Source: an uncultured Myxococcales bacterium
GTDB lineage: Bacteria; Myxococcota_A; Polyangia; Polyangiales; Polyangiaceae
Length of the DNA stretch: 61,002 bases
Assembly: GCA_937902985.1 (NCBI GenBank)
Contig: CALFNG010000170.1
Coordinates: 1-61,002 of the forward strand
Reading direction: 5' to 3'
Shown here: positions 19,081 through 22,319 of the stretch, piece by piece
Layout of the letters: each line of letters begins with the position of its first letter
Numbering within the stretch: the stretch's first letter is position 1
The notes under the pieces: generated by a model
The model's input: only the letters and a program-made list of their open reading frames with translations
What the model was told of the DNA's origin: nothing
Databases searched by the model: none
Translations under genes and position numbers: made by a program

Positions 19081-19131
19081 CCGCCGACGGTTTCTCTCGC
19101 GGCGAGCGTGCTAGATCGCTCCGTCGCATCC

Positions 19132-21657
19132 ATGAGCGACGACCCCCGAGAACGCTACGAGCCCGCCACGATCGAGCCCCGGTGGCAGGCCATCTGGGAC
19201 GAGCAGGGCACCTTTCGCGCGACGCGCCGCGCCGGCAAGAAGAAGCTCTACATCCTCGACATGTTCCCGTACCCGTCGGGGTCCGGTCTCCACGTGGGCC
19301 ACCCCGAGGGGTACACCGCCACGGACATCGTGGCGCGCTACTGGCGCATGCGCGACGTCGACGTCTTGCACCCCATGGGGTGGGACGCGTTCGGCCTGCC
19401 CGCCGAGCAGCACGCGATCGCCACCAACACGCACCCTCGCGACACCACCAAGAAGAACATCGCCACCTTCAAGCGCCAGCTCAAGTCGCTGGGCCTGAGC
19501 TACGACTGGTCGCGCGAGATCGACACCACCGATCCCGGCTACGTGAAGTGGACGCAGTGGATCTTCCTCAAGCTCTTCGAGCGCGGCCTGGCCTACCAGG
19601 CGAAGATTCCCGTCAACTGGTGCCCGGCGCTCGGAACCGTGCTCGCGAACGAAGAGGTCATCGACGGCCTGAGCGAGCGGGGAGGGCACCCGGTGGAGCG
19701 CGTTCCGTTTCGGCAGTGGATGCTCCGCATCACGCAGTACGCCGATCGCCTCGACGCCGACCTTGCGACCCTCGACTGGCCCGACACCAAGGGCAAGCAA
19801 CACCACTGGATCGGCCGCAGCGAAGGCGCCGAGATCGACTTTCCCGTCGCCGTCGTGGCCGGGGCTAGCCCGGCGAACGTCCGCGTGTTCACGACGCGGG
19901 CCGACACCCTGCCGGGCGTCACGTACGTGGTGCTCGCGCCGGAGCACGCGCTCGTGGGCGAGCTGCTCGCGTTCGCGCCGCACGACCGCGCGGTCGCCGT
20001 GCGCGCCTACGTCGAGGCCGCGAGCCGAAAGAGCGACCTCGATCGCGCCGAGGCCAGGGAGAAGACGGGCGTTCCGCTCGGCGTCTCGGTGATCAACCCG
20101 ATCAACGGCGACGCTGTCCCGCTCTGGGTGGGCGACTACGTGATCGCCACCTATGGCACCGGCGCCGTCATGGCGGTCCCCGCGCACGACGAGCGTGACC
20201 ATGCGTTCGCGCTGCAGCGCAGCCTGCCCATCGTGCAGGTCATCGCACCGGACGCGTCGTCGGCGAAGGCCGGCGCCATCGACGGCCCCGACGTGAGCAA
20301 GGTCGCGTTCACCGACGACGGCGTCACGCGCTACGGCCGCGCGCTCGCCGGAGTGGTCGACGGGACGCCGAGCGCCGACGCGCGTTCGCGCATCACCGCG
20401 TGGCTCACGAAGGAGGGCAAGGGCCAGTCGAAGGTCACCTATCGCCTGCGCGACTGGGTCTTCTCGAGGCAGCGCTACTGGGGCGAGCCGATCCCCATCT
20501 ACTTCCCGGTGACGTGCGACGGCGATCCGCGCGTGCCCGGCGCGGCGTTCACGATCCATCACGACGAGCCTCTGGCGGTTCCGGTCGAAGAGCTGCCTCT
20601 CAACCTGCCCGACCTCGACGACTTCGGTCCCGGCGACGACCCCGCCGGGCCGCTGGCGCGCGTCGCCGACTGGCGCTTCTTCCAGAGAGACGGCCGCTGG
20701 TTCGCGCGCGAGACGAACACGATGCCGCAGTGGGCGGGCTCGTGCTGGTATTACCTGCGCTTCACCGACCCGCACGACGATCGCGAGGCGTGGAGCGCGC
20801 AGAGCTACGCCGACTGGATGCCCGTCGATCTCTACGTGGGCGGCAACGAGCACGCCGTCTTGCATCTGCTCTACGCCCGCTTCTGGCACAAGGCGCTCTT
20901 CGACATCGGCGCCGTGAAGGACCCGGAGCCGTTCCTCAAGCTCGTTCACCAGGGGATGATCCTCGGCGAGAACAACGAGAAGATGAGTAAATCGCGCGGG
21001 AACGTCATCAACCCCGACGACATCGTGCGCGAGTACGGCGCCGATTCGCTCCGGGTCTACGAGATGTTCATGGGCCCGCTCGAGCAGGTGAAGCCCTGGC
21101 AGACGGGCGGAATCGAGGGCGCTCGACGCTTTCTCGAGCGGGCGTGGAACGTGGCCACGGGGACCGTGACCGACGCGCCGGAGGCCTACGACGACGCCAC
21201 GCGCCGGCTCGTGCACAAGACCATTCGCAAGGTCACGCTCGACATCGAGGCGCTGCACTTCAACACCGCGATCAGCGCGATGATGATCCTCGTCCGCCAC
21301 CTCGGCGGCCTCGAAGAGGTGCCGCGTCACGCCGCCGAGAGCGTGGCGCTGCTGGTCTCGCCGTTCGCTCCGCACCTCGGCGAAGAGCTGTGGCGGCGTC
21401 TGGGGCACGCCCGGTCGCTGGCCCGCGCGCCCTGGCCGTCGTTCGACCCCGCGCTCGTCAAGGAAGACGTGGTCGAGATGGGCGTGCAAGTGAACGGCAA
21501 GCTCCGCGGCACGATCACCCTCGCGATCGACGCCGACGAGGCGACCGCGCGCGAAGCGGCGCTCGCCGAGCCGCGCGTCATGGCCCACGTCGAGGGCAAG
21601 GCGATCAAGAAATTCATCTACGTGAAGGCCAAGATCGTCAACCTCATCGTCGGTTGA
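19132..21657 (+). CDS. leuS: Leucyl-tRNA synthetase
   Basis: An 841-residue class Ia synthetase charging tRNA-Leu, cytoplasmic. HIGH-type motif HVGH at 54-57 within SGSGLHVGHPEG; KMSKS at 617-621 (NEKMSKSRGN); editing domain region about 220-420 with TRADTLPG and the conserved AVPAHDERD; anticodon-binding C-terminus with VNGKLRG. The length is normal. The ATG at 19132 (MSDDPRE) matches the family start; a TTG/ATG 24 bp upstream is less likely. The stop overlaps the next ATG (TGATG), which couples it to lptE. The leuS-lptE order is the one known from Proteobacteria. Confidence 0.97.
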   Translation: MSDDPRERYEPATIEPRWQAIWDEQGTFRATRRAGKKKLYILDMFPYPSGSGLHVGHPEGYTATDIVARYWRMRDVDVLHPMGWDAFGLPAEQHAIATNTHPRDTTKKNIATFKRQLKSLGLSYDWSREIDTTDPGYVKWTQWIFLKLFERGLAYQAKIPVNWCPALGTVLANEEVIDGLSERGGHPVERVPFRQWMLRITQYADRLDADLATLDWPDTKGKQHHWIGRSEGAEIDFPVAVVAGASPANVRVFTTRADTLPGVTYVVLAPEHALVGELLAFAPHDRAVAVRAYVEAASRKSDLDRAEAREKTGVPLGVSVINPINGDAVPLWVGDYVIATYGTGAVMAVPAHDERDHAFALQRSLPIVQVIAPDASSAKAGAIDGPDVSKVAFTDDGVTRYGRALAGVVDGTPSADARSRITAWLTKEGKGQSKVTYRLRDWVFSRQRYWGEPIPIYFPVTCDGDPRVPGAAFTIHHDEPLAVPVEELPLNLPDLDDFGPGDDPAGPLARVADWRFFQRDGRWFARETNTMPQWAGSCWYYLRFTDPHDDREAWSAQSYADWMPVDLYVGGNEHAVLHLLYARFWHKALFDIGAVKDPEPFLKLVHQGMILGENNEKMSKSRGNVINPDDIVREYGADSLRVYEMFMGPLEQVKPWQTGGIEGARRFLERAWNVATGTVTDAPEAYDDATRRLVHKTIRKVTLDIEALHFNTAISAMMILVRHLGGLEEVPRHAAESVALLVSPFAPHLGEELWRRLGHARSLARAPWPSFDPALVKEDVVEMGVQVNGKLRGTITLAIDADEATAREAALAEPRVMAHVEGKAIKKFIYVKAKIVNLIVG

Positions 21658-22319
21658 TGCCTCGCTCGATCGGGAGAACCGCAAAGGCGCAGAGGCGCGA
21701 AGGTTTTTGTTGGGCTGGGCCTCGCCCGGTCGCGAGCCAGACCCGATGTCTTCGCGCCTTCGTGCCTTTGCGGTTTCTCCCCCTCGTGCTCGCCGTGGTG
21801 GCCGCGCTTGCCTTGGCCGCGTGCGGGTATCGAGCGGTCTATGGGGAGCGACCGCCGCTACGACTCCACGTGAAGCTCGTTCGAACCCTCATCGCCGACG
21901 TCGTGGCCAGCGACGAGGTCGCCGCCGGGGTACGTGAAGAGCTGGCTCGCGCGGGCATGCTCGAGGGCGGCGACGGCTATCCGCGCGTCGAGATCGAGGT
22001 CCTCCGCGCGAGCGACGCGAGCGAGGGCGTCGCGGCGAGCGCCGGCCCCGCGTCCCGTCCGGTAGCCCGCGCGACCGACGTCGGCATCGCCGGGCGTGCG
22101 TGGGTCATGACGGCTCCCGGGGCCGCTCCCGACAGCGACACGGGCGATCTGCGGGCCGCGGAGACCATCGCTGTCGACGAGGGGCCAGCCGGTCCCGATC
22201 CGCGCGCGAGCGCCTTTCACGAGGCCGACGCGCTGCGCGCCGCGGCACGGCGTCTCGGGCGCACGCTCGCGTACAAGGTGACCGGAGAACCGGCGGCCAG
22301 CGACGACGGGAGCGAGTAG
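21657..22319 (+). CDS. lptE: LptE-like LPS-assembly lipoprotein
   Basis: A 220-residue protein. The lipobox ALAACGYR precedes a small beta-rich domain, then an acidic, low-complexity tail. The CGYR start and the position right after leuS are those of LptE, the outer-membrane lipoprotein that plugs the LptD barrel and carries LPS to the surface. The ATG at 21657 overlaps the leuS stop. The signal peptide is odd: the first 45 residues are encoded by a full copy of the dispersed inverted repeat, with left arm RTAKAQRREG and right arm LRAFVPLRFLPL. A GTG at 21762 could give a shorter, more normal signal peptide. Identity is good from context, moderate from sequence alone. Confidence 0.75.
   Translation: MPRSIGRTAKAQRREGFCWAGPRPVASQTRCLRAFVPLRFLPLVLAVVAALALAACGYRAVYGERPPLRLHVKLVRTLIADVVASDEVAAGVREELARAGMLEGGDGYPRVEIEVLRASDASEGVAASAGPASRPVARATDVGIAGRAWVMTAPGAAPDSDTGDLRAAETIAVDEGPAGPDPRASAFHEADALRAAARRLGRTLAYKVTGEPAASDDGSE
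21672..21782. repeat. Dispersed inverted repeat, full copy inside the 5' end of lptE
   Basis: The left arm at 21672-21702 begins GGGAGAACCGCAAAGGCGC. The right arm at 21749-21782 reads, in reverse complement, GGGAGAAACCGCAAAGGC followed by ACGAAGGCGCGAAG. About 31 bp match with one 1-nt indel and few changes, separated by about 46 nt. The interior resembles the copy at 2455-2616. The arms are translated as part of LptE. Confidence 0.85.

Follow-up and report, generated by a model that had tools for sequence, protein, structure and literature searches.

Between leuS and lptE of an uncultured Myxococcales bacterium (draft genome G000), a palindromic repeat lies in frame in the pre-sequence of the predicted lipoprotein LptE, and sequence comparison with relatives indicates that it was inserted into a signal peptide already in place, separating the n-region from the hydrophobic core. 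A tolerated in-frame insertion of a lineage-specific repeat into the LptE signal, with ATG 21657 as the likeliest start, is the explanation that we consider probable. The features are listed in Table 1, with positions referring to the window, the whole stretch of 61,002 nt that was analysed.

Table 1. Features of the leuS–lptE region (positions in the window).
Feature	Position	Strand	Remarks
leuS (leucyl-tRNA synthetase)	19108–21657	+	849-aa ORF; stop TGA 21655–21657 overlaps the lptE start
Likely ancestral lptE start, TTG 21654 / ATG 21657 (TTGATG)	21654–21659	+	Coupled to leuS stop; comparison with relatives
Host-derived n-region remnant MPRSI	21657–21671	+	Codon table; position versus relatives
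Inserted palindromic element (GRTAKAQRREGFCWAGPRPVASQTRCLRAFVPLRFLP)	21672–21782	.	111 nt, exactly 37 codons; repeat search, family consensus, profile, fold
Left arm	21672–21703	+	Starts 14 nt past leuS stop; Arg/Lys-rich translation; 45.4 bits versus arm profile
Right arm (reverse complement of consensus)	21750–21782	−	46.9 bits; holds alternative starts GTG 21762 and TTG 21768
Host-derived hydrophobic core and lipobox LVLAVVAALALAAC	21783–21824	+	Cys codon 21822–21824
Mature LptE domain (CGY...)	21822–22319	+	23 homologues aligned; AlphaFold2; Foldseek; VIA-align

The repeat search located two arms of 26 nt each (21677–21702 and 21750–21775), 88% complementary and 47 nt apart, and comparison with the family consensus widened the element to the approximate limits given in Table 1. 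The top score against the arm profile in a shuffled window was 0.7 bits, far below the score of the left arm; this arm is present in the window without mismatch, and shuffled windows gave no match even when 3 mismatches were allowed. The transcript of the element was predicted to fold into a single long hairpin of −93.3 kcal/mol (shuffled sequences −62.6 ± 4.0; z = −7.7). The dispersed palindrome of the original prediction is thus real, and the reading frame is open from ATG 21657 across both arms to the lipobox Cys, as that prediction had held, with the peptides RTAKAQRREG and LRAFVPLRFLPL encoded by the left and right arms. No clear target-site duplication was seen by eye at 21660–21795, and no Rfam family matched the element. 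The insertion between leuS and lptE is known from one genome, G000. That the two genes were joined in the assembly through an arm belonging elsewhere is very improbable: the draft consists of 563 contigs, and arms of about 30 nt recur on different contigs, but leuS and lptE adjoin in relatives too, a search of the genome with the 47-nt centre of the element found nothing beyond this copy, and the frame is kept.

The element is one copy of a larger family. At least 66 arms (up to 1 mismatch) were found in G000 and none in the same-genus genomes G001 and G002; G005 has a related arm set, and a few other genomes have small numbers. The consensus from the 66 arms is GGGAGAAACCGCAAAGGCGCAAAGGCGCGAAG. 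There are 17 two-arm elements of 77–268 nt, with arms of about 32 nt in inverted pairs, and conservation within the family is limited to the arms; since the element lengths are seldom multiples of three, coding is not the usual role of the family. Genes were called with a model of codon usage whose training set was the window, and 77 arms were placed on individual extracted loci. The outer arm end lay 0–25 nt past a stop codon in 33 of the 39 arms facing a gene 3′ end and in none of the 25 facing a 5′ end (Fisher p = 1.8 × 10−12), and the lptE element sits at this usual site. Few copies overlap called ORFs, and some of these ORFs look spurious. The family is presumably mobile. A Y1 transposase (PF01797), the sole partner family searched for, was not found in the G000 assembly (about 96% complete), and a RAYT-dependent REP was rejected on this ground. 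A literature search by the repeat sequence recognised no published description or name among the papers listed, and one on myxobacterial palindromic repeats found nothing relevant.

The leuS homologues of relatives share 63–78% identity across most of their length. For the downstream gene, none of the 23 members of the divergent family matched an LptE model in Pfam or NCBIfam, and its identity was therefore settled by fold. The AlphaFold2 model of the mature part, built from the 23-sequence alignment (pLDDT 88.2), showed the elements E15–22, H27–43, E55–72, E80–96, E110–117 and H127–153, which is the LptE order of strand, helix, three strands and helix (β-α-β-β-β-α). The top Foldseek matches were LptE or LptDE structures (E = 2 × 10−6), LptE-type proteins accounting for all, or almost all, of the first 33 titles, and VIA-align gave Z scores up to 11.8. 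The lipobox reads LALAAC-GY, with CGY invariant across the 23 homologues. The predicted fold, the place behind leuS and the invariant CGY support the assignment of the gene as lptE; the search of the G000 assembly yielded a single LptE match. By its sequence, the product is a predicted outer-membrane lipoprotein with an N-terminal lipobox Cys. LptE proteins in general act as a plug in LptD and are required for LPS assembly, and the pre-sequence of lipoproteins is removed by signal peptidase II.

In the window, as in several relatives, the start of lptE overlaps the leuS stop. In these relatives the gene begins on that stop (ATGA, GTGA or TTGATG) and encodes an ordinary signal of 17–30 residues without the repeat, as in G002 (MSVAGARGRGAIALAALVAAC), G012 (MIERRFFVAALVTLALPSC), G006 (MSGRSASAFSALAALMPMLGLSAC) and G101 (MKKLPSALVMGMAMVCSVAGC), the last with the same TTGATG start as the window; G022 likewise starts on the leuS stop and is free of the repeat. 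Some relatives depart from this arrangement, with lptE located elsewhere or its start further downstream. When 21672–21782 was removed in silico, the product was MPRSILVLAVVAALALAAC, that is, MPRSI joined to LVLAVVAALALAAC, with the Cys at position 19 as in G012, and the host Arg, like the host core, was retained. The best 11-residue Kyte–Doolittle mean was 1.35 in the repeat-encoded part versus 3.18 in the host core LVLAVVAALALA, which follows the repeat, so that the repeat is not the source of the core. The peptide LRAFVPLRFLP had been taken for the hydrophobic core, wrongly in the light of these values. The proposal that the repeat supplies the LptE signal survives in part: a lineage-specific insertion does encode a portion of the pre-sequence, and it provides neither the whole signal nor the core. 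Dependence of LptE export on the repeat was overstated, as MPRSI and the core with its lipobox are kept in the window and relatives have complete signal peptides without this repeat. The residues directly before the core are repeat-encoded whether translation begins at TTG 21654, ATG 21657, GTG 21762 or TTG 21768. In the LptE of G080 (L091, near 1423–1549), an in-frame overlapping ATG lies 43 residues before the Cys (MSPRAHEATVSARAHDGSGTCGLWRVLAKGLAAVALVLGGWAC) without sign of this repeat, and the LptE family may thus include long pre-sequences, or starts that are displaced, in any case.

In the proposed course of events, a lineage-specific stem-loop repeat, MITE- or REP-like, would have inserted 14 nt past the leuS stop, as the family usually does. 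The insertion came to lie inside lptE because this gene starts on the leuS stop and the family targets gene ends, and it would thereby have fallen between the n-region and the core. It was probably tolerated because it comprises 37 codons with no stop, Arg/Lys-rich and then mildly hydrophobic, within a segment that is cleaved off. Translation would most likely still begin at ATG 21657 (or TTG 21654), coupled to leuS termination, and yield a pre-sequence of 55 residues that is targeted through the host core and lipobox, with no change to the mature LptE. Export would presumably remain efficient enough for the cell, and the element may have persisted simply through its harmlessness.

With ATG 21657 as the start, the Cys is residue 56, and in lipoprotein signals it usually stands at 15–35. 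Counted from GTG 21762 it is residue 21 (signal MPLRFLPLVLAVVAALALAAC), and from TTG 21768 residue 19; these two positions are normal for such signals and near the values of relatives. Internal initiation at one of these codons would give textbook signals, the repeat contributing the start and an n-region MPLRF or MRF ahead of the host core and lipobox, while the upstream half of the element would serve as a leader hairpin only. We regard this as a minority possibility. Both internal codons are buried in the predicted stem and nearly fully paired (mean unpaired probability 0.05 and 0.11), a Shine–Dalgarno-like motif was found upstream of none of the three codons (ATG 21657, GTG 21762, TTG 21768), and the conserved start on the leuS stop has kept its frame, an outcome expected for one random insertion in three. 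The original start, ATG 21657 (or TTG 21654), is accordingly the more probable choice over the internal ones, being coupled, conserved, intact and in frame, with the internal codons paired in the stem. The codon-usage gene caller set the lptE start downstream, at 21870, and the coding character is therefore weak up to that point.

The arms themselves have coding properties suited to such a position. Whichever of the three frames is read, the left arm encodes a cationic stretch (mean Kyte–Doolittle value −2.05 to −2.57, net charge +2.0 to +2.7 per 9 aa), and the right arm encodes a mildly hydrophobic one (+0.66 to +1.13, versus −0.78 ± 1.08 for random sequence); of 462 arm frames, 12 contain stops. 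The polarity arises because a purine-rich strand pairs with a pyrimidine-rich one, so that codons with a middle A become codons with a middle U. This polarity and the cleavage of the pre-sequence can jointly explain how insertions survive in signal peptides; they are no demonstration that the cell needs the inserted codons. A stronger form of exaptation, in which LptE export has come to require the repeat-encoded stretches and the family acts as a portable proto-signal-peptide, would agree with the arm properties and with the lipoprotein type of all five N-terminal candidates in G000 (lptE, C364, C314, C374 and C83), but we hold it to be improbable: the host core and host Arg of LptE stay without the element, the polarity is automatic for any hairpin of purine-rich and pyrimidine-rich strands, and the related family of G005 offers no convincing N-terminal fusion.

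The four candidates besides lptE came from a scan of all elements for ORFs open across them; the set is small, was classified by hand and was compared post hoc. The clearest is a TPR lipoprotein on contig C364 (L023, G000:C364:12465–12550, minus strand), which reads MTLG-[86-nt element]-LFFCLVALSGC, with a two-arm element between the ATG and the core and an ATGA overlap with the upstream gene. In its relatives the element is absent and the start lies on the upstream stop (for example MRRRLSPAVLALCMAC and MRRAPISVLGLVLAVSAAAC), and the repeat may here supply the n-region charges, the host ones having seemingly been lost. In the C83 lipoprotein the ATG stands directly before an arm. Only this left arm was counted; an apparent right arm was dismissed as coincidence, since a similar stretch occurs in the same-genus G001, where no repeat is present. 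The C374 candidate is trypsin-like on our own reading of the sequence, and the fusions of C374 and C314 are ambiguous, each having an alternative start (GTG or ATG) after the arm. Downstream genes that appear cytosolic (RNase PH, HemE, GyrA, an SDR enzyme and ThyA, again on our own reading) start past the element. Among the codon-usage ORFs crossing elements, several are shadow frames of opposite-strand genes and were left uncounted.

An orphan Cys-rich ORF at 148–516 of the window (+), MKARRPSPRSW-RLCAFAVLS-LGVACAGSVPAGASC..., itself uncertain as a gene, has a lone right arm (176–206) that encodes the hydrophobic stretch of a predicted lipoprotein signal; no homologue was found in 37 relatives. 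The idea of a signal supplied by the repeat fits the putative cases of C364 and ORF 148–516 better than lptE. More broadly, insertion behind stop codons in overlapping gene pairs might repeatedly rebuild the n-regions of lipoproteins, that of LptE included and in C364 perhaps part of the core, which would make the family a portable proto-signal-peptide; this generalisation we consider doubtful.

Several known systems are comparable. Rickettsia palindromic elements (RPE) are dispersed, about 105–150 bp long and tolerated in frame in conserved genes (PMC10969869, PMC2229807), and the lptE element, a palindrome of similar length in frame in a conserved gene, works like an RPE here. The host lineage differs, however; almost every copy here is intergenic and directly adjoins a stop codon, and the N-terminal candidates concern cleaved lipoprotein pre-sequences, whereas RPE lie in the mature protein. 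Compared by description, the outer ends here also lack the CGTC of the R. conorii repeats (PMC3733652). In Yersinia, a YPAL/RU-2 repeat encodes residues 1–30 of YPO1552, a signal peptide built from the repeat (Delihas 2007); the LptE repeat, in contrast, interrupts an existing signal whose n-region and core still flank it, and does so in a gene that is single-copy and belongs to the LPS export machinery. GTAG REPs are palindromic and dispersed, often abut coding regions or stop codons, and are in some cases found inside ORFs (PMC3733652). The present family shares with these REP/REPIN (RAYT) sequences the palindromic form, the dispersal and the position at gene ends, but its arms of about 32 nt (consensus GGGAGAAACCGC...) lack the GTAG end, and no cognate RAYT was found in the G000 assembly. 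For ERIC/RU-1, gene fusions are known, one of which extends a gene at its 3′ end (PMC2759123). Like ERIC and other MITEs, the element is short, has inverted repeats and lacks coding capacity of its own; it is unrelated to ERIC/RU-1 on present evidence, including the Rfam result. The terminal inverted repeats, multiple copies and lineage-specific spread, with absence from same-genus genomes, are those of a MITE. In-frame palindromes are thus known from Rickettsia and one repeat-built signal from Yersinia, and the split of an existing LptE signal adds a further form to these.

The mechanism of arrival, a preference for gene ends combined with overlapping genes, is visible in the data, and it provides a route for selfish palindromes into conserved envelope genes. 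Signal peptides can absorb an insertion because they are cut off the mature protein, and the recurrence in several lipoprotein genes predicts that in-frame N-terminal palindromes will be found mainly in cleaved pre-sequences. Near such repeats, lipoprotein starts that are annotated automatically will be unreliable, the codon-usage caller having misplaced that of lptE.

The contig of the window opens in a (GAA)n tract (1–55), and the contig C205 starts with a (CTT)n tract beside a repeat arm, which hints that simple repeats break the assembly near these elements. The related repeat of G005 (L213–L248; core ACGCAAAGGCGCAGAGACGCAGAG) has a conserved outer flank and lies behind genes, mostly 9–48 nt from the stop. 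Exact arm matches were also found in Gallionellaceae, Aridibacter (Acidobacteriota), gammaproteobacterial and Rhodocyclaceae genomes (L166–L169), in each of the four in an inverted-repeat setting as judged by eye; the family, or something convergent, crosses phyla.
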